Of a stretch of 64,000 nt of DNA, positions 45,652-61,942 are shown piece by piece; within the stretch, counting starts at the first letter, position 1, and every line of letters starts with the position of its first letter. The position numbers were made by a program, and so were the translations under genes. The stretch spans positions 1-64,000 of the forward strand of contig NZ_JACJHY010000026.1 in NCBI RefSeq assembly GCF_014138625.1. Reading direction: 5' to 3'. This DNA is from Aminobacter ciceronei. GTDB taxonomy: Bacteria > Pseudomonadota > Alphaproteobacteria > Rhizobiales > Rhizobiaceae. The notes beneath the pieces were generated by a model. It was not told the origin of the DNA, did not search any database, and was given only the letters and a program-made list of their open reading frames with translations.

Positions 45652-47307
45652 CTAGCTTATCTCGGCCCTGGCCCGTGGTCGGGTGTCGTTGCGCTCATAT
45701 GTGAAAATCGCCGGTGGCAGCGGGTCGCGGTTGCGGATGATGTCGGCGCCTTTCTCACCCATCATGACAGTCGGGCCATTGGTGTTGCAGGAGGGCACGC
45801 GCGGCATGACCGAGCTGTCGCAGACACGCAAGCCCTCCATGCCATGTACCTTGAGCTCAAGGTCGACGACAGCCATATCGTCGGTGCCCATCTTGCAGGT
45901 GCCGACAGGGTGATGGTCTGTCTTGGCGTTGGCGCAGCCATAGTCGAACAGCTGTTCCTCGGACACCTTGTCCGGTCCGGGCAGCCGCTCGGCCAGCACG
46001 AACGGCTTGAGCGCTGCCTGCTGCATGATCTCGCGTGCAACCCTGAGACCTTCGATCGACATCTTGCGGTCGTGCGGATCGGCCCAGTAATTGGGGTCGA
46101 TCAGCGGAGCCGCCGCCGGGTCGCTGGACGCGAGCCGCACCGTGCCGCGCGAGCGCGGATGCAGATAGGCGGAGTTGAGCGTCACGCCGGCGTTCTTGAG
46201 CCTGGCGACGCCGGCCTCGATGCCCGAACCAAGGCCGAGATGGAACTGGATGTCCGGCGAACGCGCGTCGGGATCGGCGTACCAGAAGCCACCCGTTTCA
46301 AAGAGGCTTGACGTCACCGGCCCGGTGCGGAACAGCACATATTGCAGTCCTGCCCACAGCGTCCGATGCAGCTTGGCGACGTTGTCGTAAGTGTGATCGC
46401 CGGTACATTCGGAAATGACGAACAGGTCGAGATGGTCCTGCATGTTTTCGCCGACACCCTTGAGGTCGTGGACGACAGGCACACCGACGCTCTTCAGGTG
46501 ATCGGCCGGGCCGATGCCCGACTGCAGCAGAAGCTTGGGCGAGCCGATGGCCCCGGAGGAAACCAGCACCTCGCGCTCGGCGCGGATGATTTCGCTGCCA
46601 TTGCCGCTCGCGACCTCGACACCGACAGCCCTGCCCTTCTCGACCACGATGCGCGTTACCCGTGCGCCGAGCCGGACGGTCAGGTTGCGCCTGTCCTTGA
46701 TCGGGGCGAGATAGGCCATCGAGGCCGACGAGCGCCGCTTGTTGCGCTGGGTCAATTGATAGAAGCCGACGCCGGCCTGCTGTTTGCCATTGAAGTCGTG
46801 ATTGTAGGGAATGCCGAGCTCCTGGCCGGCGCGGATATAGGCATCGCAGATCGGCAGGGCAGCCGACGGCATCGACACGCCGAGTGGCCCGCCATAGCCA
46901 TGATAATCGTCGGCGAAACGCTGGTTGTCTTCCGAGCGCTTGAAATAGGGCAACACCGAGCGGTAGTCCCAGCCGGTGCAGCCGTCCTCGCTTGCCCACA
47001 GATCATAGTCTGCGGCGTTGCCGCGCGTGTAGAGCTGGGCGTTGATGCTGGAGCCGCCGCCGATCACCTTGGCCTGGGTGTAGCGCAAGACGCGGCCTTT
47101 CATGTGCTTCTGCGGCACGGTTTCCCAGCCCCAGCTGGCCACGCCCTTGGTCATCTTGGCAAAGCCCGCCGGCATGTGGAACAGCGGGTTCCAGTCGCCG
47201 CCGCCGGCCTCAAGTAACAGTACGCGCACATCGGAATCTTCGCTCAACCGGTTGGCCAGCACGCAACCGGCTGGACCCGCACCTGTGATGATGTAGTCGT
47301 AAGTCAT
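45652..47307 (-). CDS. GMC-family flavin oxidoreductase (choline/alcohol dehydrogenase-like)
   Basis: 551 aa. FAD motif [16 protein letters not shown] at the N-terminus, the GMC signature [11 protein letters not shown] and [10 protein letters not shown], and the catalytic-region [10 protein letters not shown] near the C-terminus. It would oxidise a primary or secondary alcohol to aldehyde or ketone, passing electrons to the respiratory chain or O2. Last gene of the leftward cluster; ATG 47307 begins 9 bases after the SDR stop codon. Substrate unknown; the aldehyde dehydrogenase of the same cluster could take the product. Confidence 0.9.
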
Positions 47308-47315
47308 CTCTGATC

Positions 47316-48092
47316 TCAAAGTCGCGCGACCGACAGCGCACCGTCAGCCCTGATGATGGAGCCGGTGGCAAAGCCGAAGCCGCCGCTGGCGAGTGCCGCC
47401 GCGATGCGGCCGATGTCGTTCGGCTCGCCCCAGCGTTTGACCGGCACGAGGCCGTCAGCGATGAGCCGGTCGTATTTCTCCGAGACTTTCGCCGTCATTT
47501 CGGAGCGGATGATTCCGGGCCGGATTTCGAACACGTCGATGCCGGTGCCGGCGAGCCGCAGCGTCAGCCCTTGGGTGAATGCGGCAAGCCCGGCCTTCGA
47601 CATGCAGTAGTCGAGCCTGTCGGGCGACGTCATCTCGGCCGAGATCGAGGTGATGTTGATCACCGAGCGCGGATGCAATGTCGGTGGTGCGATGAGCATG
47701 GCCCGCAGCACCGCCTGGGTGAAGAACACCGTGCCGCGCAGATTGACCGCCATGATGGCGTTGAAATTCTCGGGCGTCATCTCGAGGAAATCGCCGCGCA
47801 CCCCGGACGCGACACCGGCATTGTTGACCAGGCAGTCGATCTGCCCGAAATGCCCGACGATCCTGTCGACCGTGCCGGCATGGCCGTCGAGGTCGGCAAG
47901 GTCGGAGGCGAGGAACAGCACGCGCGCACCGTGTTTCTCCAGCCCCGATACCGCCTCTGCCGAGGCAACGTCTTCCTCGCGATCGGTGATGGCGAGGTCG
48001 AAGCCCGCCCTGGCAAGCGCTTCGGCAACGGCAAGGCCGATGCCGCGCCGCGCGCCGGTCACCAGTGCCACCGGTTTTGCCGCCACTTTCAT
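47316..48092 (-). CDS. Short-chain dehydrogenase/reductase
   Basis: 258 aa classical SDR. Cofactor motif TGARRGIG (12-19), NNAG, a catalytic Ser in INITSIS, and Tyr162/Lys166 in DYCMSK. It would interconvert a hydroxyl and a keto group with NAD(P). AAGGA precedes the ATG, and the first bases overlap the 3' end of the next GMC gene (stop at 48089), so the two are coupled. It is placed between two GMC oxidoreductases, which suggests a common polyol-like substrate. Confidence 0.9.
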   Translation of the reverse strand: MKVAAKPVALVTGARRGIGLAVAEALARAGFDLAITDREEDVASAEAVSGLEKHGARVLFLASDLADLDGHAGTVDRIVGHFGQIDCLVNNAGVASGVRGDFLEMTPENFNAIMAVNLRGTVFFTQAVLRAMLIAPPTLHPRSVINITSISAEMTSPDRLDYCMSKAGLAAFTQGLTLRLAGTGIDVFEIRPGIIRSEMTAKVSEKYDRLIADGLVPVKRWGEPNDIGRIAAALASGGFGFATGSIIRADGALSVARL

Positions 48093-49594
48093 GCCGCCAG
48101 ATCCTTTTCAGCGATGTGGTCGGCAACCCGCAGCGCCTGCGCCGCGATCGTCAGCGCCGGATTGACCGCCGCCGATGTCGGCAGGAAGCTCGCATCGACC
48201 ACGAACAGGTTCGGATGGTCGAAGGCGCGGCAGAAGACGTCGAGCGGGGCGTCCTTGGGGTCGCTGCCTATCCTTACCGTGCCGCACTGGTGCGACGGCG
48301 TGCGCTTGTCGAAGGCGCGTGAGACGACGACCGGGAAACCTGCGCTGCGCAGCACCTGCTTGAGCTTGGCTACCAGCCGCTCATGCGCCTGCCAGTTGCT
48401 GCGCACCCATTTCAGCACGATGCGGTCGCCATCGACCATGACCCGGCTTTCCGGCGACGGCAGGTCCTCGCTCATGGCGTAGAAGTCGATCGAATGCGCC
48501 GTCGTCAGATTCAACAGCCACTCCGGCACGGCGGGCATCGCGCCCTTCAGGATGGTGCCCGAGATGCGCCCGAGCAGCTGGACGTTGCCCAGTGGCGGCC
48601 CGCCCTCGCCGTCGGAGAGATAGAAATCGTTGAAGCCGAAGGTCTTCTGGTAAACCGAGTCATTGCGGAACCAGGGGCTCATGGCGATGACAGCCGTCGA
48701 ATTGTGGTTCATGAAGTTGCGGCCGACCTGATCGGAGCGGTTGGCGAGGCCGCTGGGGTTGCTGTCGTTGGCCGAGCGCAGCAGAAGCACCGCCGATTGC
48801 ACAGCCCCTGCCGACAGGATCGCCAGCTTCGGTCGCAGCACTGTTGCCTCGCCATTGCGCAGGTAATGAACCGCAACGATCCGCCCGTCGGCGGCCGCCT
48901 CCAGATGCGTCACACGCGAGCCGGTCTGCAGCTTGACGTTCTCATGCTTCAGCGCCGCGGCCAGCGCCGTCGTCTCGGCATCCATCTTGCCGTCGAAGCT
49001 GTTGGGGTGGGCGTCCCACGGCGTCTTGCCCTTGGCCAGCCAGCGCTCGATATCGACACCGAGCGGCAGCGAAAAGGGATGCATGCCGTTGGCCTTGAGG
49101 CGTGCCCGCACCTTCGAGATCGCGGGCTCGTCGGCAACGGGCTTCAAGCCATAGGGCTGCGAATGCACGGGCTCTGTCGGGTCTTCGCCGAGCGTACCGC
49201 GCACCTGATAAAGCTCTTCGGCCCTGCCGTACCACGGCTCCAGGTCTTCATAGGCAATCGGCCATGCCGGCGACACACCGTCGAGATGCTGCATCTCGTC
49301 AAAGTCCTCGCGGCGGTAGCGTGTCAGCACGGCGCCGTAGAACTTCGAATTGCCGCCGACATTGTAATAGTTGCCTGGATTGAAGCCGGTACCGTCGGCC
49401 TCATACCAGGTCTCGTCAGGGCGGAAATGCCCGCGCTGGAAGATGGCGCGCTGGTCGCGGTTCTCCGGCCGGTCGGCGATATGGCCACCAGCCTCGAGCA
49501 CGAGAATCTCCGCGCCGGTCGCGGCGAGCCCTGCAGCAACAGTGGCGCCGCCGACACCCGAGCCGATGATGACGATGTCAGGCTGTCCGGACAT
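48089..49594 (-). CDS. GMC-family oxidoreductase (glucoside/pyranose dehydrogenase-like)
   Basis: 501 aa. The FAD motif GSGVGGATVAAGL follows the start DIVIIGSG; HQCGTVRIG near the C-terminus corresponds to the GMC_oxred_C active-site His. It differs clearly from the other GMC protein of the cluster and is closer in type to sugar dehydrogenase large subunits (gluconate/glucoside dehydrogenases). ATG 49594 overlaps the stop of the ABC ATPase gene by ATGA, so the gene is coupled to the sugar importer. Confidence 0.85.
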   Translation of the reverse strand: MSGQPDIVIIGSGVGGATVAAGLAATGAEILVLEAGGHIADRPENRDQRAIFQRGHFRPDETWYEADGTGFNPGNYYNVGGNSKFYGAVLTRYRREDFDEMQHLDGVSPAWPIAYEDLEPWYGRAEELYQVRGTLGEDPTEPVHSQPYGLKPVADEPAISKVRARLKANGMHPFSLPLGVDIERWLAKGKTPWDAHPNSFDGKMDAETTALAAALKHENVKLQTGSRVTHLEAAADGRIVAVHYLRNGEATVLRPKLAILSAGAVQSAVLLLRSANDSNPSGLANRSDQVGRNFMNHNSTAVIAMSPWFRNDSVYQKTFGFNDFYLSDGEGGPPLGNVQLLGRISGTILKGAMPAVPEWLLNLTTAHSIDFYAMSEDLPSPESRVMVDGDRIVLKWVRSNWQAHERLVAKLKQVLRSAGFPVVVSRAFDKRTPSHQCGTVRIGSDPKDAPLDVFCRAFDHPNLFVVDASFLPTSAAVNPALTIAAQALRVADHIAEKDLAA

Positions 49595-49595
49595 G

Positions 49596-50711
<1,116 letters not shown>

Positions 50712-50715
50712 GGGC

Positions 50716-51597
50716 TTACCCCTTGACCGCGCCGGCCATCAGGCCGCGCACGAAATAGCGTCCGGAGACGATGTAGACGATGAGGGTGGGCAGGGCGGCG
50801 AGGATCGCGCCGGCGAAATGCACGTTGTATTCCTTCACGCCGGTGGACGAGTTGACGAGGTTGTTGAGCGCTACCGTCAGCGGGATCGAGTTGAAGCCCG
50901 AAAACGACGAGCCGAACAGGAAGTCGTTCCAGATGTTGGTGAACTGCCAGATGACGGTGACGACGATGATCGGACCCGACGACGGCAAAAGGATGCGCCG
51001 AAAGATCTGGAAGAAGCTCGCGCCGTCGATCTGTGCTGCCCGCACCAGTTCGGTCGGGAACGCCTCGTAATAGTTGCGGAAGAACAGCGTGGTGAAGCCG
51101 AGGCCGTAAATGGCGTGGATCAGCACAAGGCCGGTGATGGTGCCGGCAAGGCCGGTCAGGCCGAGGATGCGCGCCGACGGGATCAGCACGATCTGGAACG
51201 GAATGAAGCAGGCAAGCAGCATCAGGCCGAAGACGATGTTATCGCCCTTGAAGCGCCATTTGGTCAGCACATAGCCGTTGAGCGCTCCGAGGATGGTCGA
51301 CAGCGCCACCGCCGGAACCACCATCATCACCGAGTTCAGGAAATAGGGTTTCAGCCCCGTCGGCGAGACGCCGATCTGCGCAGTCGACCAGGCGGACAGC
51401 CAGGGCGCTATCGTCCATTGCTGCGGCAGCGCCAGCATGTTGCCCTGGCGGATCTCGTCCAGCGGCTTCAGCGAATTGACGACCATCACATAGAGCGGCA
51501 GCAGGTAGTAGACCGCAAACAGGATGAGAACGGCATAGATCAGCGCACGGGCGAAGATGCCGTTACGGGTTGCGACGTCCTGGGAGGCGGCACTCAT
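50716..51597 (-). CDS. Sugar ABC transporter permease (MalG type)
   Basis: 293 aa, six membrane segments, with the EAA coupling loop visible as YYEAFPTELVRAAQIDGASF. Partner of the MalF-type permease whose 3' end overlaps its start by 4 bases. Together with the ATPase and binding protein it forms a complete carbohydrate importer of the CUT1 class. Confidence 0.93.
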   Translation of the reverse strand: MSAASQDVATRNGIFARALIYAVLILFAVYYLLPLYVMVVNSLKPLDEIRQGNMLALPQQWTIAPWLSAWSTAQIGVSPTGLKPYFLNSVMMVVPAVALSTILGALNGYVLTKWRFKGDNIVFGLMLLACFIPFQIVLIPSARILGLTGLAGTITGLVLIHAIYGLGFTTLFFRNYYEAFPTELVRAAQIDGASFFQIFRRILLPSSGPIIVVTVIWQFTNIWNDFLFGSSFSGFNSIPLTVALNNLVNSSTGVKEYNVHFAGAILAALPTLIVYIVSGRYFVRGLMAGAVKG

Positions 51598-52511
51598 TTC
51601 TTCTTCCCCCCGAGTTCGGAGTAGAGGTAGGGCACGATGATGGCGAAGATCATCATCATCATGATGATCGCGGACGCAGCACCCATGCCCATTTCATTGC
51701 GGCCAAAGGTGAACTTCTGCATGAACAGCGCCGGCGTCCAGGTCGCAGTCCCCGGTCCGCCGTCGGTCATCGCCACCACAAGGTCGTAAGACTTGATGGC
51801 GAGGTGGGCGAGCACCACGAAGGCCGACAGGAACACCGGCCGCATCAGTGGAATGATGATCCGGCGATAGATGGTGAGCGTCGAGGCGCCGTCGATCTGG
51901 GCGGCCTTGATGATTTCGTTGTCGACGCCGCGCAGGCCGGCGAGGAACATCGCCATGACGAAGCCCGACGATTGCCACACCGCAGCGATGACGATGGTGT
52001 AGATCGCCATCTGGCCTTCCTTGATCCAGCGGAACGAGAAGCTTTCCCAACCCCATGACTGCATCACGTGCTCGAGGCCGATGCCGGGGTCGAGAAACCA
52101 CTTCCAGGCGACGCCGGTGACGATGAATGACAGCGCCATCGGGTAGAGATAGATCGGGCGCAGCACGCCCTCGCCGCGGATTTTCTGGTCGAGGAAGATC
52201 GCCAGCGCCAGCCCGATGAAACTGCAGATGACGATATACAGCACCGAGAAGATCGCAAGGTTCTTCAGCGCCGTGATCCAGTTGGGATGGTTGAACAGCC
52301 TGACATAGTTGTTCAGGCCGACCCAGGTCGAGAAATCGGGCAAAAGCTTCGAGCCCGAGAACGACAGGAAGGCCGTGAAGACGATGAAGCCGTAGACGAA
52401 GATCAGGATCAACGCGAAGCTCGGCGCCAGCACGATCTTCGGCAGCAGGTCCTGCAACGTCGCGCGCGGGTTCGTCACCGCGCGGGGTGCGGTCGTGGTG
52501 AGATCGGCCAT
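51594..52511 (-). CDS. Sugar ABC transporter permease (MalF type)
   Basis: 305 aa, six membrane segments, coupling loop GLRGVDNEIIKAAQIDGAST. CUT1 importer subunit. It lies 164 bases downstream of the binding-protein gene; that gap holds two strong stem-loops that may protect the binding-protein mRNA and lower permease synthesis. Confidence 0.93.
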   Translation of the reverse strand: MADLTTTAPRAVTNPRATLQDLLPKIVLAPSFALILIFVYGFIVFTAFLSFSGSKLLPDFSTWVGLNNYVRLFNHPNWITALKNLAIFSVLYIVICSFIGLALAIFLDQKIRGEGVLRPIYLYPMALSFIVTGVAWKWFLDPGIGLEHVMQSWGWESFSFRWIKEGQMAIYTIVIAAVWQSSGFVMAMFLAGLRGVDNEIIKAAQIDGASTLTIYRRIIIPLMRPVFLSAFVVLAHLAIKSYDLVVAMTDGGPGTATWTPALFMQKFTFGRNEMGMGAASAIIMMMMIFAIIVPYLYSELGGKKK

Positions 52512-52543
52512 GGGGTCCAGCCTCTGGGTTGTCAGGTCAGGAT

Positions 52544-52567
52544 GTGCCCCGACCGAAGCCGGGGCAC
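52544..52567 (-). repeat. Stem-loop between binding-protein and permease genes
   Basis: GTGCCCC (52544-52550) pairs with GGGGCAC (52561-52567) around a 10-base loop, in the transcribed spacer of the sugar importer operon. Confidence 0.55.
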
Positions 52568-52630
52568 GAAGTTCGGTGAAGGGCCTGCCGTGGCCCCGCT
52601 GCTACGCAGCTCCCAGGCGTTCGCCGCCTG

Positions 52631-52653
52631 CCATCGTGCCACCGGCACGATGG
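52631..52653 (-). repeat. Interspersed palindrome, copy 1
   Basis: CCATCGTGCC-ACC-GGCACGATGG, a 10-bp perfect stem. Flanks (GCGTTCGCCGCCTGCC on the left, GCTGCGC and CTCACCC on the right) recur at 62.1 kb, where two stem base pairs differ but pairing is kept. Confidence 0.7.
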
Positions 52654-52675
52654 ATTTGCTGCGCATACCGGCGTC

Positions 52676-53929
52676 TCACCCCTTGGCGGCGGCAACCGCT
52701 TCGGCCAGCGCCTGGGCGGCGGCCTTGGAGTCGAGTTCGCCGTTGAAGTGACGGGTAACGACGTCGTAGAGCGCGTTCTTCACCGCGGCCGGTGCGGCAT
52801 AACCATGTGCCATCGAGCCGAACAGCTTGCCACCGGAGCTGGCTTCGGCCAGGTCCTTGATGCCCTTCTTACCGCAATCGTCAAAGGCGGTGTCAGGCAC
52901 GTCGGTGCGTGCCGGCACCGAGCCCTTGACCACGTTGAACGACGACTGGAAGGCCGGATCCTCGATGTCGGCAGCCATCTGCAGCTGCGCCTTCTTCTTG
53001 TCGTCGCCAACCTTGAACATCATGAACATGTCAGAGTTGAAGGTGACGGCGCCCTGCGTCCCGGGGAAGCGGATGCAGACGAAGTCGGTGCCCGGCTTCT
53101 GGCCGGCCTTGAGGAACTCACCCTTGGCCCAGTCACCCATCATCTGCATGCCGGCCTTGCCCTCGATGACCATGGCCGAGGCAAGATTCCAGTCGCGGCC
53201 AGAGAAGTCCTTGTCGACATAGGTCTTGAGCTTGGCCATGCGGTCGAAGGCTTCGACCATCTTGTCGCCGCCAAGTGCGGCCGGATCGAGATCGATCATC
53301 GACGACTTGTAGAAGTCGGTGCCGAGCGACAGCACGACGGCGTCGAAGATGGTCGCATCCTGCCAGGCCTGGCCGCCATGGCCGAGCGGGGTGATGCCGT
53401 TGGCCTGCATCTTGTCGAGCACCGCGACCAGCTCGTCCCAGGTCTCGGGCGCCTTGCCGCCGGCAGCGTCGAGCGCCTTTTTGGAGATCCAGACCCAGTT
53501 GGTCGAGTGCACGTTGACAGGTGCTGCAATCCACTTGCCGTCATGCTTGGCGAAGTTCTGCAGTGCGGCCGGAACGACCTTGTCCCAGCCTTCCTTGTCG
53601 GCCACTTCGCCGAGATCGCCGACGACGCCCTGGTTGGCCCAGTCGGTGATGTCGAAGCCAAGCGCCTGCACGGCGGTGGGCGGATCGCCTGCGGTGACAC
53701 GGGCGCGCAGCGCGGTCATCGCCGCTTCGCCGCCGCCGCCGGCAACCGGCATGTCTTTCCAGGTCACGCCCTGGCCTTCCAGGTTCTTCTTCAGCACGTC
53801 GAGTGCTGCTGCCTCACCGCCTGACGTCCACCAGTGCAGAACTTCGACGCTTTCCTCGGCCTGTGCCATCGGCATAGGCGCGGCAAACAGTGCCGCCACG
53901 GCTGCCGTACTCATCAAAAACTTACGCAT
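52676..53929 (-). CDS. Sugar ABC transporter substrate-binding protein
   Basis: 417 aa. Signal peptide to AQAEE (about residue 24), then [16 protein letters not shown], the start of the glucose/mannose GtsA-like group of CUT1 binding proteins (SBP_bac_1). It captures a carbohydrate in the periplasm. GGAGG lies 8 bases before the ATG. An 85-base gap separates it from the aldehyde dehydrogenase gene upstream, and stem-loops follow it. The GtsA resemblance suggests a monosaccharide but does not prove it. Confidence 0.92.
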
Positions 53930-54014
53930 TCCAGTTCCTCCCGGGTTGCAAGTTCCTCACGCGTCATTGCGTGTCATAAAATCCCTTCGGCCCCGCCTCT
54001 GGGAATTCCTCCGT

Positions 54015-55535
54015 TCAGCCGCGCGCCTCCTTCGGCATCCAATGGCCGGTGCGCGGTCCGATATGCATGTTGAGCGTCTTGGTTTCGGTGTAATCCTCGA
54101 CCGCATGGCGGCCGAGCTCGCGGCCGATGCCCGATTGGCGGTAGCCGCCGAAGGGCAGCTCCGAGGCGCCGTCCATGAAGGTATTCATCCAGACGGTACC
54201 GGCACGGACTCTACGGCCGACTGTCAGGCAGGTGTCGAAGTCGCGGCTCCAGACGCCTGCCGACAGACCATAGTCGATCGAATTGGCGATACGGATCGCC
54301 TCGTCAGTGGTCTCGAAGGCAAGCACCGAAAGCACCGGTCCGAACACCTCCTCTTTCGCCACCGCCATGTCGGGGGCGACCGACGACAGGATCGTCGGCT
54401 CCATGAACTGGCCGAGGCCGAGATCAGCGGCAGACCCGCCGACAGCAACCCTCGCACCGTTCTCGCTCGCACCTTTCACGTAACCAACGATCTTCGCAAG
54501 ATGCTGCGGCGTGATGATAGCACCAACCTGCGTCGATGGGTCGAGCGGATCGCCGACCTTGACCTTGGCCGACAGAGCGGCAACGCGGCTGGTCACCTCG
54601 TCGGCGACGTCGCGATGCACGATCAGGCGGGAGCCGGCATTGCAGCACTCGCCGGCGTTGAAATAGGCGCCGAAGACGGCCGCATCGACGAAGTCATCGA
54701 GATTGGCATCAGGGAAGACGATCTGCGGGTTCTTGCCGCCGAGCTCCAGTGACACTTTCTTCAACGTTTGCGCGGCGTTGGCCATGGTCAGCTTGCCGAT
54801 ACCGGTCGAGCCGGTGAACGACACCATGTCAATGTCGGGGTGGCTGGTCAGCGGCGCACCAGCCTCCGGCCCGGTTCCGACGATGATGTTGACCACGCCC
54901 TGGGGGACCCCTGCCGCCTCCAGAATCTCGCCGAGTACCAGCGTCGAGCCTGACGTCAACTCCGACGGCTTGACCACTGCCGTACAGCCGGCGGCCAGCG
55001 CAAAAGGCAACTTCTGGCTGACGATCAGGAACGGGAAATTCCACGGCGTGATGATCGACACGACGCCGATCGCCTCGCGCAGGACCACGCCCAGCGTGCC
55101 GTCGCCCAGCGTGTTGTAGCTCTCGCCATGCAGGTCCCGCGCAAGTGCTGCCGCATAGCGCCAGATGTCGGCGGCACCGCCAAGTTCGCCCTTGGCCTGG
55201 GAGATCGGCTTGCCTGACTCGATACAATCGAGGAAGGCGAGTTCATCGGCACGCGCGTCAATGATGTCGGCGGCCCTGAGCAGGATGCGCGAGCGCTCGG
55301 CGCCGGTCATGCGCGGCCAATGTCCGTCGTCGAACGCCTTGCGTGCCGAGGCAATGGCGCGGTTCGCATCGATAGCGGTCGCGGCCTCGTAGCGGCTGAC
55401 AACGGCGCCATGGCCGGGGCTGGCGCGCTCGATGGCCTTGCCTTCGGCGCCGGCGGTCCATTTGCCGTCGATCAGCATCTTGAACTCGCGGACCTTGAAG
55501 CCGTCGAGCGGCTTGGGACGCATCAGGACCGTCAT
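54015..55535 (-). CDS. Aldehyde dehydrogenase (NAD(P)+)
   Basis: 506 aa. Catalytic cysteine in GECCNAGSRL, general base Glu in LELGGKNP, and the oxyanion Asn in IITPWNFPF. It oxidises an aldehyde to the acid in the cytoplasm. The start at 55535 forms TGATG with the stop of the enoyl-CoA hydratase gene and has GGAG 7 bases upstream; an ATG six bases earlier is an alternative. In this cluster its acid product would be the substrate of the CoA-transferase. Confidence 0.92.
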   Translation of the reverse strand: MTVLMRPKPLDGFKVREFKMLIDGKWTAGAEGKAIERASPGHGAVVSRYEAATAIDANRAIASARKAFDDGHWPRMTGAERSRILLRAADIIDARADELAFLDCIESGKPISQAKGELGGAADIWRYAAALARDLHGESYNTLGDGTLGVVLREAIGVVSIITPWNFPFLIVSQKLPFALAAGCTAVVKPSELTSGSTLVLGEILEAAGVPQGVVNIIVGTGPEAGAPLTSHPDIDMVSFTGSTGIGKLTMANAAQTLKKVSLELGGKNPQIVFPDANLDDFVDAAVFGAYFNAGECCNAGSRLIVHRDVADEVTSRVAALSAKVKVGDPLDPSTQVGAIITPQHLAKIVGYVKGASENGARVAVGGSAADLGLGQFMEPTILSSVAPDMAVAKEEVFGPVLSVLAFETTDEAIRIANSIDYGLSAGVWSRDFDTCLTVGRRVRAGTVWMNTFMDGASELPFGGYRQSGIGRELGRHAVEDYTETKTLNMHIGPRTGHWMPKEARG

Positions 55536-56314
55536 CACCATTCTCCTGCAAATTTGGCGGCACGCTTCTCGCTGAAGGCCGCGACCCCCTCCTTGAGGTC
55601 TCCGGTCTTGGCCACGAGAATCGAGCCCAGCGCCTCGACGGCGGTGCCATTGTCTTCACCATTCGCGGTGGCGATCATCAGTTTTGCGACCTCAACTGCC
55701 GCAGGCCCCCGCGCCGCGACCCGGGCCGCATAGGCGCGCGCCGCAGCCACCGCCGCGCCGGTCTCGACCACATGGTCGACCAGCCCGAGCCCTGCTGCCT
55801 CGTCGGCGGAAAACACCTCGCCGCCCAGCGCCATACGCCTCACCACCTGCGCACCGGCGCGCCTCACCAGACGCTGTGTGCCCGACCAGCCCGGCACCAT
55901 GCCGAGCCCGGTTTCCGGCAGGCCGATCTTCACATGACGCTCGGCAATGCGGATGTCGGCGGCTATCGCCAGCTCCAGTCCGCCGCCCAATGCATGGCCG
56001 TTGATGGCAGCGATCACCGGTACGCGCAGCGTCGCCAGGCGTTCGAACACGCGGTGGCCGAAACGCACCCAGGCATGGCCGAACTCGTTGGGTGTCATTT
56101 CGCCCCAGGCCTTGATGTCGCCGCCGGCCGAAAACGCTTTGCCCTCGCCGGTGAGGATGGCGACGCGGATTTCCGCATTGGCCTCGACCTCGTCGCAGGC
56201 CTGGGACAGCGCCTTCAGCATGTCTATATCGAAGGCGTTGAGCTTGTCCGGCCGGGCCGCCGTGATGATCGCGACAGGACCCTCGAACTCGACCCTGATG
56301 CGCTGGTCAGCCAT
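55535..56314 (-). CDS. Enoyl-CoA hydratase/isomerase family protein
   Basis: 259 aa crotonase fold. The oxyanion-hole segment NGHALGGGLELAIAAD and a Glu in GLPETGLGMVPGWSGTQRL, at the position of the second catalytic Glu of hydratases, are present. It should add water to, or isomerise, a CoA thioester. GGAGG precedes the ATG, which overlaps the CoA-transferase stop. Presence of a crotonase next to a sugar importer is unusual. Confidence 0.9.
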   Translation of the reverse strand: MADQRIRVEFEGPVAIITAARPDKLNAFDIDMLKALSQACDEVEANAEIRVAILTGEGKAFSAGGDIKAWGEMTPNEFGHAWVRFGHRVFERLATLRVPVIAAINGHALGGGLELAIAADIRIAERHVKIGLPETGLGMVPGWSGTQRLVRRAGAQVVRRMALGGEVFSADEAAGLGLVDHVVETGAAVAAARAYAARVAARGPAAVEVAKLMIATANGEDNGTAVEALGSILVAKTGDLKEGVAAFSEKRAAKFAGEW

Positions 56315-57917
56315 GGATGCCCTCCAGCTTGCGCACCGGCTTGCGCGGCAGCTTCAACCTGATCGGCGCTTCGGCGAACAGGGCAGCATCCATCTGCTTG
56401 AGTTTGTCCGACACGATCAGCGGGAATTCCGACTGGTCGAGAATATGCGTCTGCAGTTCGACGCCCGGCGCGATCTCGGTCAGCACAATGCCTTGAGGCA
56501 TAAGCTTCATCACACAGCGTTCGGTGACATAGGTGATGTCCTGGCCCTGTTCGACGCCGCGACGCCCCGAGAAGGTGACATGCTCGACCTCGTTGACCAG
56601 CTTCTTGAGCTTGCCTTCCTTCTCGACCACCAGCTTGCCAGCCTCGATGTCGAGCTTGGCGCCGGCATTGAACATGCCGGAGAAGACGATCTTCCTGGCT
56701 CGCGCCGTGATGTCGATGAACCCCCCGGCACCCGCCGTCACATGTGGCCGGAAGCTGAGCTTGGAGACGTTGACCGAGCCGTTGCGGTCGATCTCGAGGA
56801 ACGACAGCAGCGAGGCGTCGAAACCCGCGCCCTGGAAGTAGGTGAACTGGTAGGGCGACGGCATAAAGGCATCGGCATTCGACGCGCAGCCGAAAGCGAA
56901 ATCGAGCAGCGGCACGCCGCCGACGGCACCCTGCTCGATCACCCAGGTGACCTCACCATGCAGCCCTTCTTCAAGCAGGATGCGCGGCACGTTGGCCGAA
57001 ATGCCGAAGCCGAGATTGACCGCGCTGCCGGCCTCGAGTTCCTGAGCGACCCGGCGGGCGATGACCTTCTGAAGGTTGAACTCGGGCACGCGGAAGCTGT
57101 CGAGAGGCCGCATGATCTCGCCTGAAATCGCAGGGTCGTAGAGCGTCTGCGTCGTCTGCTTCTGCTCGGGGTCGACGACGATGTAGTCGACCAGCATGCC
57201 CGGCACGCGCACATCGTGCGGGCGCAGCGAGCCGTCCTTGGTGATACGCTTGACCTGGGCAATGACGATGCCGCCATTGTTGCGCGCGGCGAGTGCCTGG
57301 TCGAGCCCGCCGAGATAGGCGCCTTCATGTTCGTAGGTCAGGTTGCCGCGCTCGTCTGATGTCGTTGCCCGAATGATCGCCACTTCAGGCTTGATAGCTG
57401 GGAAGAACAGCCAGTCCTCGCCCTCGAAGCTGACCTTCTTGACCAGCGGTTCGGCCGCAGCACGCGCATTCATGGCGCAGCCCTGCCGCTCGGGATCGAC
57501 GAAGGTGTCGAGCCCGACCTTGGTCATGACGCCCGGCCGCTTGGCGGCAGCCTCGCGATGCATGTCGAACATGATGCCGGACGGCACGTTGTAGGCAGCC
57601 ACCTCCTCATTGCCGATCATCTGCCAGATCAGCGGCGGCTCGGCGCTCGACGGCCCCGACGGATAGGAGCCGCCGATGATCGTCTTCAGCAGGCCCTTTT
57701 TGGCGATATGGTCGACACCCTTGATGCCGCTCATGTCGCCGGCGGCGATGGGGTGCAGCGTCGTCAGGTCGCGCGGATGGCCTGTAGCCTCGAAGCGTTC
57801 GCCGATCGCCTTCAGCGTCAGGTCGGGACAGCCTAGCCCGCTCGACGACGACACCGAGACCACCGCACCATCGGGTATCAAAGCAGCGGCCTGGGCGGGA
57901 GTGATGTGCTTGCTCAT
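56307..57917 (-). CDS. Family I CoA-transferase (YdiF/propionate CoA-transferase type)
   Basis: 536 aa single-chain enzyme with fused alpha and beta halves. The catalytic glutamate that forms the CoA thioester is Glu327 in VIEQGAVGG; the N-terminal half has VSVSSSSGLGCPDL and GLLKTIIGGSYP. It would move CoA from acetyl- or succinyl-CoA to an acid, preparing it for the hydratase. The ATG at 57917 directly follows the stop of the Gfo/Idh gene; an extension upstream to 58118 has no family support. Confidence 0.88.
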   Translation of the reverse strand: MSKHITPAQAAALIPDGAVVSVSSSSGLGCPDLTLKAIGERFEATGHPRDLTTLHPIAAGDMSGIKGVDHIAKKGLLKTIIGGSYPSGPSSAEPPLIWQMIGNEEVAAYNVPSGIMFDMHREAAAKRPGVMTKVGLDTFVDPERQGCAMNARAAAEPLVKKVSFEGEDWLFFPAIKPEVAIIRATTSDERGNLTYEHEGAYLGGLDQALAARNNGGIVIAQVKRITKDGSLRPHDVRVPGMLVDYIVVDPEQKQTTQTLYDPAISGEIMRPLDSFRVPEFNLQKVIARRVAQELEAGSAVNLGFGISANVPRILLEEGLHGEVTWVIEQGAVGGVPLLDFAFGCASNADAFMPSPYQFTYFQGAGFDASLLSFLEIDRNGSVNVSKLSFRPHVTAGAGGFIDITARARKIVFSGMFNAGAKLDIEAGKLVVEKEGKLKKLVNEVEHVTFSGRRGVEQGQDITYVTERCVMKLMPQGIVLTEIAPGVELQTHILDQSEFPLIVSDKLKQMDAALFAEAPIRLKLPRKPVRKLEGIHG

Positions 57918-57918
57918 G

Positions 57919-59960
<2,042 letters not shown>

Positions 59961-60009
59961 AACGATCCTCCTGGCGAGCGTCTCTGGCTCCCTTTTCCGA
60001 GTCCAATAA

Positions 60010-60023
60010 TTGGAACGTTCCAA
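60010..60023. promoter_or_regulatory. LacI operator O1 (perfect palindrome)
   Basis: TTGGAACGTTCCAA, 14 bp, with the central CG typical of LacI-family sites, 50 bases upstream of the lacI TTG. It should give autoregulation of the whole leftward cluster. Confidence 0.85.
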
Positions 60024-60230
60024 ACTGTCAAGCAAGGAAGAACGGCGATACCATCCTTTTCACATCGGCAGAACCCAAAGGCCTTGGCCACCAGAATGCC
60101 AGAATTGTACACAATTCGCGCTTTCAAACGATTTGTAATGCTATTTTGCCCTGAAACCATCCCAGCATATCGATGCACCGCCCGATCGACCGGCACACCT
60201 GCGCCAGGCCTCACAATTCCGGCTTGAAAT

Positions 60231-60244
60231 TTGGAACGATCTAA
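60231..60244. promoter_or_regulatory. LacI operator O2 (two mismatches)
   Basis: TTGGAACGATCTAA differs from O1 at two positions and lies 33 bases before the DUF993 start codon, so the same repressor should control the divergent gene. The sites are 221 bases apart, a distance that would allow DNA looping. Confidence 0.8.
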
Positions 60245-60276
60245 ATTACCAGATGCAACCGATCAGGGAGGAACCC

Positions 60277-61443
60277 ATGGCCAAGGCAGTGAAGCTTCCG
60301 CGGACAGACCGCTCGATCGAGACCTACACACTTGTCGGCACACCGATCGAACGACCTGAAGCCGCCCCCGTTTTCAATCGTATCGCCTACGCGGCTGCGC
60401 ATGTCGTCTCCGACCCGTGGGCCGACACGCTGCCCTGGAACAGCCCTGTAATCGACTGGGATGCGACCATGGCCTTCCGCCATCATCTCTGGTCGCTCGG
60501 CTTCAAGATCGCCGAGGCGATGGACACCTCGCAGCGCGGCATGGGGCTGGATTGGACGGGCGCGCAGGAGCTGATCAGCCGCTCACTCGCCGAAGCGCGC
60601 ACGGTGCCGGGTGCCGACCTCGCTTGCGGCGCGGGCACCGACCAGTTGCCCAAACAGGATGCCAAATCGCTCGACGACGTCATCTCGGCTTACGAGGAAC
60701 AGCTCGGCTTCATCGAGAAGCATGGCGGCCGCGCGATTCTGATGGCGAGCCGGGCGCTCGCCCATGTCGCGAAATCCCCCGACGACTACCGCAAGGTCTA
60801 CGGCCGCATCCTTGGCCAGGCCAAGGACAAAGTCGTCCTCCACTGGTTGGGCGACATGTTCGATCCCGAACTCACAGGCTATTGGGGCGGCGACCGTTTC
60901 GAGGACACGTTGCTGACCGTGCTGTCCATCATCACCGATCACCAGGACAAGGTCGAAGGCATCAAGATCTCGCTGCTTGACCAGGCCTATGAGGTCGAGC
61001 TGCGCCGGCGTCTGCCCCAGGACGTGATCTGCTTCACCGGCGATGACTTCAACTATGCCACCCTGATAGAAGGTGACGGCACGCGCCACAGCCACGCGCT
61101 GCTCGGCATCTTCGATGCGGTAGCGCCCCAGGCATCCAAGGCGCTGGCAGCCTTGGCCAACGGCGACCTCGCCACCTTCCGTGGCACCATCGAGCCGACA
61201 GTGCCGTTGTCGCGCAAGATTTTCGAGGCGCCGACGCAATATTACAAGGCCGGCGTCGTCTTCCTCGCCTGGCTCAACGGCCACCAGAGCCACTTCACCA
61301 TGCCCGCCGGCATGCAATCGGCAAGAGGTGCACTGCACTACGCCGACATCTTCCGCCTCGCCGACCAGGCCAATGTGCTCGACAAGCCTGACCTCGCTGC
61401 ATTGCGCATGACGGCGCTGATGACACAGTACGGCTTCGCCTGA
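60277..61443 (+). CDS. DUF993 family protein (aldolase-like TIM barrel)
   Basis: 388 aa. The sequence (PWADTLPWNSPVIDWDATMA, DLACGAGTDQLP, QYYKAGVVFLAWLNGHQSHF) fits the DUF993 family, usually labelled dihydrodipicolinate-synthase-like, of unproven function but found with sugar catabolic genes. It probably performs a retro-aldol or related C-C step in the cytoplasm. GGGAGGA lies about 5 bases before ATG 60277. Transcribed divergently from lacI with its own operator. Confidence 0.83.
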   Translation: MAKAVKLPRTDRSIETYTLVGTPIERPEAAPVFNRIAYAAAHVVSDPWADTLPWNSPVIDWDATMAFRHHLWSLGFKIAEAMDTSQRGMGLDWTGAQELISRSLAEARTVPGADLACGAGTDQLPKQDAKSLDDVISAYEEQLGFIEKHGGRAILMASRALAHVAKSPDDYRKVYGRILGQAKDKVVLHWLGDMFDPELTGYWGGDRFEDTLLTVLSIITDHQDKVEGIKISLLDQAYEVELRRRLPQDVICFTGDDFNYATLIEGDGTRHSHALLGIFDAVAPQASKALAALANGDLATFRGTIEPTVPLSRKIFEAPTQYYKAGVVFLAWLNGHQSHFTMPAGMQSARGALHYADIFRLADQANVLDKPDLAALRMTALMTQYGFA

Positions 61444-61447
61444 CCGG

Positions 61448-61942
61448 CTACATCAGGCCAAGCTGCTTGTAGAAACCGAGCGCGTCATAATAGTCGCTCT
61501 GGCTGGCGATCTTGCCATCCTTGACCGAGAACATCGAGGCGCCGGTGAAGGCAAACTTCTTGCCGGTCGCCTTGGTGCCGTCGGCCCAGTCGCCGGTGTT
61601 GGTGCCGGAGAATTCCCATTCGAACGACACGCGGTCGTCCTGCACCACGGGCTTGCCCTTCATCGTCCAGACGGCATCGGGTACAGCCTTCAGGAAATTG
61701 TCGATGACGCCGGTCTTGGCAGCTTCCTTGCCCTCGACGGGCTTGCCAACCGAAGCGTCGTAGTAGACGACGTTGTCGGCGAAATGTTCGGCCGCCTTGG
61801 CCGAGTCATGGGCATTCCAGGCGGCGAGATAGGCGTCGACGACAGCCTGCGGCGTGTCCTGCGCCAGCGCCGGCCCGATGGCTGGAGCCGTAGCGAGGAA
61901 TGCAGCAACGGCTGCGGATGCGAGAAACTGACGACGATGCAT
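61448..61942 (-). CDS. SnoaL/NTF2-like secreted protein
   Basis: 164 aa. Signal peptide with twin-arginine-like MHRRQFLASAA and a cut near ALAQ (about residue 28), then one SnoaL-like polyketide-cyclase fold (AYLAAWNAHDSAKAAEHFAD). These small barrels bind diverse ligands; no catalytic role can be named. GGAGG upstream fixes the start at 61942. Convergent with the DUF993 gene, 4 bases apart, and separated from patD by repeats. Confidence 0.82.
   Translation of the reverse strand: MHRRQFLASAAVAAFLATAPAIGPALAQDTPQAVVDAYLAAWNAHDSAKAAEHFADNVVYYDASVGKPVEGKEAAKTGVIDNFLKAVPDAVWTMKGKPVVQDDRVSFEWEFSGTNTGDWADGTKATGKKFAFTGASMFSVKDGKIASQSDYYDALGFYKQLGLM

Follow-up and report, generated by a model that had tools for sequence, protein, structure and literature searches.

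A unit of catabolic genes was analysed on contig NZ_JACJHY010000026.1 of Aminobacter ciceronei, in a stretch of 64,000 nucleotides (hereafter the window) belonging to a 6.77-Mb genome. Twelve minus-strand genes extend from position 59960 down to 45652 in the order LacI-family regulator, Gfo/Idh-family dehydrogenase, coenzyme A (CoA)-transferase, crotonase, aldehyde dehydrogenase (ALDH), periplasmic binding protein, two permeases, ATPase, GMC-family flavin dehydrogenase (GMC2), SDR and a second GMC enzyme (GMC1). Together with a divergent DUF993 gene, the single DUF993 match of the genome, they form one tight unit (Table 1). The Gfo/Idh gene encodes an orthologue of 1,5-anhydro-D-fructose reductase (AFR), and it is close to certain that the locus is one conserved catabolic unit containing such an orthologue.

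The initial annotation of this DNA had listed a CUT1 importer, two GMC enzymes, an SDR, a Gfo/Idh dehydrogenase, an aldehyde dehydrogenase, a CoA-transferase, a crotonase and DUF993, and every gene was borne out by Pfam and NCBIfam. The tight coupling that it read from gene overlaps is real, neighbouring genes being spaced by -8 to +8 bases apart from two looser joints (+85 and +164) that flank the binding-protein gene. The starts of the mechanically called open reading frames were too early for five genes, for which 59960 (LacI), 57917 (CoA-transferase), 49594 (GMC2), 47307 (GMC1) and 60277 (DUF993) are the likely positions; with the corrected start, the overlap between GMC1 and SDR vanishes.

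Table 1. Features of the unit, listed from DUF993 through the intergenic region down to GMC1. The last column gives the distance in bases to the next gene of the list.
Feature	Position	Strand	Assignment	Gap
DUF993 protein with a TIM barrel of DHDPS type, proposed to be a C-C lyase	60277..61443	+	PF06187 603 bits	+316
Second operator-like palindrome TTTGGAACGATCTAAA, upstream of DUF993	60230..60245		2 mismatches
Operator-like palindrome ATTGGAACGTTCCAAA, upstream of LacI	60009..60024		0 mismatches; conserved in relatives
LacI-family regulator, first gene of the unit	58917..59960	-	Pfam LacI and Peripla_BP_3; predicted TTG start after AGGAGG	-4
AFR orthologue, Gfo/Idh family	57919..58920	-	PDB 2glx 581 bits, 4koa 576 bits	+1
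Family I CoA-transferase (YdiF/FadX type)	56307..57917	-	Pfam CoA_trans; YdiF 2ahu 364 bits	-8
Crotonase, enoyl-CoA hydratase/isomerase family	55535..56314	-	ECH_1 177.5 bits	-1 (TGATG)
ALDH	54015..55541 (start 55541 or 55535)	-	Aldedh 562.6 bits	+85
Periplasmic binding protein, sugar/glucose-binding type nearest	52676..53929	-	SBP_bac_1; PDB 4r2b 660 bits	+164
ABC permease 1, CUT1 type	51594..52511	-	BPD_transp_1	-4
ABC permease 2, CUT1 type	50716..51597	-	BPD_transp_1	+4
MalK/UgpC-type ATPase	49596..50711	-	ABC_tran and OB_MalK; UgpC subfamily score exceeds cut-off	+1
GMC2 flavin dehydrogenase	48089..49594	-	PDB 6a2u 151 bits, 7w2j 107 bits	-4
SDR, PRK12745 '3-ketoacyl-ACP reductase' subgroup	47316..48092	-	NCBIfam NF009386 350.7 bits (cut-off 250)	+8
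GMC1, choline-dehydrogenase-like alcohol dehydrogenase	45652..47307	-	NF002550 593.5 bits (cut-off 605, slightly missed); PDB 9lq0 401 bits

The AFR orthologue and its linkage in the family

The full-length Gfo/Idh protein matched 2glx and 4koa, both of the PDB entries named 1,5-anhydro-D-fructose reductase, and the next PDB match scored 127 bits, identifying it by sequence as an orthologue of the characterised enzyme, whose activity is the NADPH-dependent reduction of 1,5-anhydrofructose to 1,5-anhydromannitol. The AFR of Sinorhizobium meliloti, whose locus tag is presumably SMc04400, is encoded in an operon of this type; of its 333 residues, 1 differs from 4koa. The substrates first proposed for the unit (inositols, deoxy sugars and quinate) do not agree with this assignment; inositol, quinate and rhizopine readings were dropped because the Gfo/Idh gene is that of an AFR orthologue.

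Among 199 genomes of the family, the window's own included, an AFR orthologue (E ≤ 1e-100) was present in 43. A CoA-transferase copy adjoined it in all 43, on the same strand and at most 240 bases away, and no AFR orthologue was found away from a CoA-transferase gene in these genomes at this threshold. A DUF993 match lay within 20 kb of AFR in 42 of the 43, that of G089 being a fragment at the end of a contig; in the exception, G095, the two genes are on separate contigs. The sample covers a single family whose genomes are mutually related, so that the 43 cases are not 43 independent events, and Fisher values, which ignore kinship, were not used as proof. DUF993 was found in 67 of the 199 genomes (79 matches, all used in the nearness tests; 74 of them exceed 800 bp and count as full copies), with a CoA-transferase within 20 kb of 49 of the 74 full copies. 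Conversely, 62 CoA-transferase copies at ≥63% identity, the top of the matches listed, were found in 57 genomes, and a DUF993 match lay within 20 kb of 50 of them.

Near-identical gene order was observed in S. meliloti Ak57, Rhizobium ACO-34A, R. daejeonense and Rhizobium SL42 (L002-L005). A second LacI gene lies inside the unit in three of the four, and a glycerate kinase gene follows GMC1, with a small Dabb protein intervening in two. DUF993 is annotated in three; the ACO-34A copy, at 27.9-29.1 kb of L003 and 78% identical, is missing from the PLSDB table of that strain. The 3.7-Mb sequence CP090106.1 (L002), which carries the AFR locus, bears the label pSymB and is probably a mislabelled chromosome, the SMc tags of S. 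meliloti being chromosomal. Script-made gene calls in the relatives were rough and served to choose proteins for Pfam.

The initial annotation had assigned sugar import, oxidation, CoA loading and DUF993 to a single unit, a proposal to be abandoned if the homologues never co-occurred elsewhere. They co-occur widely, both in the relatives and in the 199-genome counts, and this main refutation therefore fails. The co-conservation is widespread but modular, some relatives having only a core without AFR and DUF993 and others DUF993 without AFR. All 23 loci with CoA-transferase and DUF993 whose view reaches GMC1 have an SDR, and 11 of the 23 show a glycerate kinase. DUF993 and the SDR thus travel together, usually with AFR, and are added to a core that comprises the CoA-transferase, the crotonase, the ALDH, the GMC enzymes and the importer. 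In S. meliloti RCAM1750, Rhizobium NLR16a and TH2, and Paracoccus, a third setting combines CoA-transferase, crotonase, GMC, SDR and DUF993 with acyl-CoA dehydrogenase and electron-transfer flavoprotein (ETF), and no AFR was found there. The AFR-less loci L105-L108 and L151 (S. meliloti pSymA type, Rhizobium, Paracoccus, Raoultella planticola) hold a related DUF993 cluster in which CoA-transferase, GMC and acyl-CoA dehydrogenase are joined by ETF genes of its own and mostly by an ALDH.

Operator-like sites and the DUF993 fold

The intergenic region between LacI and DUF993 contains two copies of the palindrome WTTGGAACGTTCCAAW, one exact and one with 2 mismatches, which are the sole matches at ≤3 mismatches in the window; the rest of the genome holds two more sites, each with 2 mismatches. 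At least two such sites (≤3 mismatches) were present in 76 of 77 divergent LacI-DUF993 regions of loci with CoA-transferase, and 11 sites lay outside the divergent regions of the same loci, which total 1,595,597 bases; as the motif was read from the very regions in which it was counted, these figures describe conservation and placement, not independent discovery, and some genomes entered them twice (in the genome sample and as a named contig). Site pairs also precede LacI or CoA-transferase in nine of nine core loci (L199-L207), in Paraburkholderia (L006) and in Ciceribacter (L008). No operator-like site was found in Caballeronia L152, in the pSymA-type L105, L107 and L108, or in L109, L110 and L151, and L083, L103 and L106 have a single weak site each. 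A scan for sigma-70 promoters gave no match, and terminator-like sites were not above chance (10 found, mean 10.0 in shuffles). Because the operator-like sites are conserved, control of the unit by LacI, as claimed in the initial annotation, is well supported at the sequence level, and DUF993 is a predicted member of the LacI regulon.

A structural model of DUF993 built from 34 natural sequences reached a mean pLDDT of 93. Foldseek returned 4dnh first, followed by entries for dihydrodipicolinate synthase (DHDPS) and YagE at E of about 1e-9, and the model has the TIM barrel of the DHDPS type. The top entry is the uncharacterised S. meliloti SMc04132, itself a DUF993 protein; the 49 matches listed after it share 11-16% identity with DUF993. 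The invariant K230, located on strand 6 (residues 226-232), aligns with the Schiff-base lysine K161 of DHDPS, which is invariant in seven DHDPS homologues from the same genome, out of eight found there. The underlying hhalign match is weak (probability 1.6%), and the correspondences of K230, H189 and DT[AS]QR rest on it; the alignment is nevertheless consistent with the strand order in the model.

DUF993 therefore shares the fold and the strand-6 lysine with the DHDPS/2-keto-3-deoxygluconate (KDG) aldolase superfamily (DapA, YagE) and differs from it by low identity and at two sites. The tyrosine and the GTTGE motif have functional roles in the pyruvate-dependent members of this superfamily. 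At the aligned positions, DUF993 has the invariant H189 in place of the catalytic tyrosine and D83-T84-[AS]85-Q86-R87 in place of GTTGE. A plain KDG-type aldolase was lowered as a candidate for this reason, although the alignment is weak. The modelled fold points to a DHDPS-like protein, not a proven aldolase, and DUF993 probably acts as a C-C lyase. The initial proposal of oxidation, CoA loading, hydration and cleavage by DUF993 accordingly stands in that the fold makes DUF993 a plausible C-C enzyme; the order of the steps is unproven.

In the DUF993 tree, genomic settings clustered, with 3 changes for the broadly defined CoA group versus 38.8 in shuffles, a contrast inflated by near-copies in a tree made by a quick method with many weakly supported forks and several long branches. 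In L074 (7866-10536), DUF993 lies directly downstream of genes for a beta-keto acid cleavage enzyme and a thioesterase-like protein. In the window, the genes beyond DUF993 (SnoaL-like, aminobutyraldehyde dehydrogenase and polyamine-type permease by Pfam and NCBIfam) look like members of another unit; the SnoaL-like gene, at 61448-61942 (-) directly past DUF993 on the opposite strand, encodes a protein that probably has a signal peptide.

Known routes and alternative substrates

A 2025 review (PMC12441222) describes for Rhizobiaceae the conversion of 1,5-anhydrofructose to 1,5-anhydromannitol and on to mannose by an unidentified cytochrome P450-like hydroxylase, gives this reduction-to-mannose route for Sinorhizobium morelense and names alpha-glucans as a source of 1,5-anhydrofructose. 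Common to the unit studied here and this pathway is the AFR orthologue, and AFR of S. meliloti also belongs to an operon of this type. The published pathway goes on to mannose, whereas here AFR is tied to CoA-transferase, crotonase, SDR and DUF993, in many cases to glycerate kinase as well; the mannose scheme leaves these genes and the ALDH unexplained. The initial annotation knew no described pathway with exactly this gene set and missed that the Gfo/Idh protein is an orthologue of the characterised AFR, which links the set to a partly described pathway.

It is conceivable that the published route is correct and lacks nothing, with AFR making 1,5-anhydromannitol, an unlinked P450-like enzyme hydroxylating its C1 to give mannose, and the CoA genes serving another substrate through a shared importer and regulator. 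The report for S. morelense (PMC12441222), the occurrence of the core genes without AFR and the P450 genes of this genome speak for it. The three P450 matches are on contigs C3, C38 and C14, none being on the window's contig C26, and Pfam found no P450 among the unit proteins, though a distant gene may serve; the review calls the hydroxylase unidentified. Weighing further against it, AFR orthologues sit beside the CoA-transferase gene in every one of the 43 genomes, and in this unit AFR lies between LacI and CoA-transferase in one overlapping series. We consider this explanation improbable.

Regarding S. meliloti, dextrin induces smc04396, according to one paper (PMC4960864), and gene order suggests that smc04396 is the binding-protein gene of the operon. 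In a table of another paper (PMC12542648), SMc04390, SMc04391 and SMc04392 are named sorbose dehydrogenase, SDR and dehydrogenase and change together in the proteome, which fits GMC1-SDR-GMC2. SMc04396 and SMc04401 appear elsewhere in the literature as sugar transporter gene and regulator, and by gene order the operon would comprise SMc04389 to SMc04401. Proteins of this operon (SMc04390-92) and of the other DUF993 cluster (SMc04132-35) both fall in a phbC phaR mutant, a possible link to polyhydroxybutyrate (PMC12542648). Within the open-licence PMC literature, no paper was found on 'DUF993', nothing useful on pAO1 xylose, and nothing relevant on S. meliloti pSymA tags or on anhydroglucitol with CoA-transferase.

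After 4r2b, whose ligand is glucose, the nearest relatives of the binding protein are 8hqq, 5dvf and 5xpj (named sugar-binding) and 2b3b (named glucose-binding), and those of GMC2 in the PDB are FAD glucose and fructose dehydrogenases (6a2u, 7w2j). Both would suit a sugar or glycoside of gluco configuration, whether ordinary or rare, such as a 3-keto-glucoside or a glucosone-type osone, oxidised in an FAD-dependent manner with AFR reducing 2-keto aldoses in general. Osones are among the compounds that AFR reduces, and DUF993 pairs elsewhere with Gfo/Idh and AP_endonuc_2-type proteins, which are familiar from keto-sugar routes. Such a substrate explains CoA-transferase and crotonase no better, however, and no glycoside hydrolase was found among the unit proteins by Pfam and NCBIfam scans, so that it is rated unlikely. 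In operons of this kind from Ochrobactrum/Brucella (L122, L132, L133, L136), no importer genes were seen between ALDH and GMC2.

The CoA-transferase shows full-length similarity to YdiF (2ahu), and its E328 aligns with YdiF E333, presumably the active-site glutamate; among YdiF/FadX-type short-chain acyl-CoA transferases it scores 348 bits against the FadX equivalog, far under the 750-bit cut-off. Both glutamates to be expected in a crotonase-family hydratase lie in the crotonase motifs GGGLEL and LPETGLG, and a retro-Claisen crotonase (BadI-like) was lowered as a candidate because both are kept.

CoA thioesters of sugar acids with glycerate kinase at the end are shared with the oxidative deoxyribonate pathways (Price et al. 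2019, PMC6365646, in the part available), for which mutant fitness data led to CoA-transferase, beta-hydroxyacyl-CoA dehydrogenase and glycerate kinase being proposed together. By analogy, a polyhydroxy acid could be oxidised at C3, loaded with CoA and cleaved to an acetyl-CoA-type fragment and glycerate without DUF993 cleaving. The deoxyribonate pathways use a thiolase or beta-keto acid cleavage enzyme and MFS transport and, in that part of the paper, have no AFR/DUF993 part. Neither a thiolase nor a beta-keto acid cleavage enzyme was matched by Pfam among the unit proteins, and AFR, GMC2 and the glucose-type importer would have no role, which makes this explanation very unlikely.

According to the review (PMC12441222), no analogous oxidative route for 1,5-anhydroglucitol has been described, and the known routes for this sugar are anaerobic. 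Anaerobic breakdown of 1,5-anhydroglucitol and 1,5-anhydromannitol by a phosphotransferase system (PTS) and the glycyl-radical enzymes YbiW/PflD (Ma et al., via PMC12441222) faces the same task of opening a ring without an anomeric carbon. Unlike that system, the unit is a flavin/NAD/CoA set with an ABC importer, suited to aerobic cells, and Pfam matched neither a PTS nor a glycyl-radical enzyme in it.

A proposed route for 1,5-anhydro sugars

The favoured explanation, held tentatively and at slightly less than an even chance as a whole, treats the unit as an operon for the aerobic catabolism of an anhydro sugar shaped like glucopyranose, with CoA-based ring opening. Its substrate is somewhat more probably than otherwise 1,5-anhydro-D-fructose with the related 1,5-anhydrohexitols (1,5-anhydromannitol, 1,5-anhydroglucitol), the estimate having been lowered slightly because some loci keep the remaining genes without AFR. 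In favour of this explanation are the orthology of AFR and its constant place beside the CoA-transferase gene, the kinship of the binding protein with sugar and glucose binders, the induction of smc04396 by dextrin together with the origin of 1,5-anhydrofructose from alpha-glucans, the glycerate kinase after GMC1 in L002-L005 and beside DUF993 on pAO1, the SDR in all 23 views that extend to GMC1, the paired operator-like sites and the joint change of SMc04390-92. The C1 of a 1,5-anhydrohexose carries no second oxygen, so these sugars are not openable by hydrolysis. In the proposed route, the CUT1 importer would take up the anhydro sugar, GMC2 and AFR would interconvert its C2 keto and alcohol forms, and GMC1 with the aldehyde dehydrogenase would convert the primary alcohol at C6 to a carboxylate. 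The CoA-transferase would make the CoA thioester of this acid and could recycle CoA from product to substrate. The thioester would acidify H5, allowing the crotonase to expel the C4 hydroxyl by elimination across C4-C5, and adding water to the enol ether thus formed would then break the ring, giving a 3-deoxy-2-keto chain. After oxidation of one hydroxyl by the SDR, DUF993 might use its conserved Schiff-base-type lysine to split the chain into two C3 halves, one becoming glycerate, which glycerate kinase would pass to glycolysis. LacI would repress both directions from the paired operators. This order of steps and ring opening by the CoA arm are doubtful, and an aldol-first order is equally possible.

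Several points count against this explanation. Some concern the chemistry: water addition at the alpha carbon is unusual for a crotonase, DUF993 is without the motifs of enzymes acting on such keto acids (the canonical tyrosine and GTTGE were not found, by the weak alignment), and the published mannose scheme requires none of the CoA genes. AFR reportedly also reduces other 2-keto aldoses, so that 1,5-anhydrofructose need not be its natural substrate. No glycerate kinase was seen in 12 of the 23 views reaching GMC1, many of which end there. In this genome the nearest glycerate kinase (70% identical) is off the unit, on a separate contig with none of the other unit genes, and no operator-like site was found in the surrounding 19 kb. 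No binding-protein match was in view in 8 of 78 loci with LacI, CoA-transferase and DUF993, two of these views being short.

The remaining points concern gene content. AFR was present in 78 and absent from 12 of 90 fetched loci with CoA-transferase (>60%) and DUF993, counts in which some genomes likewise entered twice; seven of the 12 are pSymA-type, L098, L143 and L170 resemble this operon apart from the missing AFR, L149 shows neither AFR nor crotonase, and L153 is the last. In a pSymA-type cluster of S. meliloti, an acyl-CoA dehydrogenase and ETF take the place of AFR beside CoA-transferase and DUF993. Another Gfo/Idh pairs with DUF993, without such a CoA-transferase, in 27 of 80 loci sampled from the DUF993 matches found, mostly with an AP_endonuc_2-type isomerase as well, and in none of the 80 did this pairing occur together with this CoA-transferase; low counts of GMC, SDR and glycerate kinase in the sample reflect 20-kb views that stop short of these genes. 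Seven fully viewed relatives (G113, G009, G042, G012, G161, G102, G067) keep the core of CoA-transferase, crotonase, ALDH, GMC1, GMC2 and importer without AFR, DUF993 and glycerate kinase, and the core genes may therefore have their own substrate.

Two of these seven, G102 and G067, have DUF993 elsewhere in the genome. The SDR is absent from six, which have a different Gfo/Idh-like match (27-31%) downstream of GMC1; Pfam on two of the six gave Gfo/Idh and an FAD_binding_2 protein of about 700 aa. The six (G113, G009, G042, G012, G161, G102; L199-L203, L207, L209-L213, L215) appear to carry a swapped sub-pathway with the other Gfo/Idh. Plasmid pAO1 groups an ABC importer, GMC, ALDH, Gfo/Idh, DUF993 and glycerate kinase without CoA genes; in this sugar cluster of Paenarthrobacter nicotinovorans (L111, 14001-15191), DUF993 lies between Gfo/Idh and glycerate kinase.

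A bolder form of the explanation, an undescribed aerobic 1,5-anhydrohexose pathway with a C6-CoA thioester, ring opening by the crotonase and DUF993 as a new lysine-dependent lyase yielding glycerate or glyceraldehyde, would make the published mannose route wrong or a side reaction, and is judged unlikely in this full form.

Starch and glycogen yield 1,5-anhydrofructose, and its reduced form, 1,5-anhydroglucitol, occurs in virtually all food analysed. The cluster would provide a small gene set for an aerobic anhydro-sugar route, and the conserved operator-like site helps to find more such sets. DUF993, with a solved, uncharacterised structure, gains a first functional handle. At the level of genes, the unit is a variation on a catabolic ability already known in part, and soil bacteria probably use ring-locked starch-derived sugars aerobically through an uncharted CoA route.

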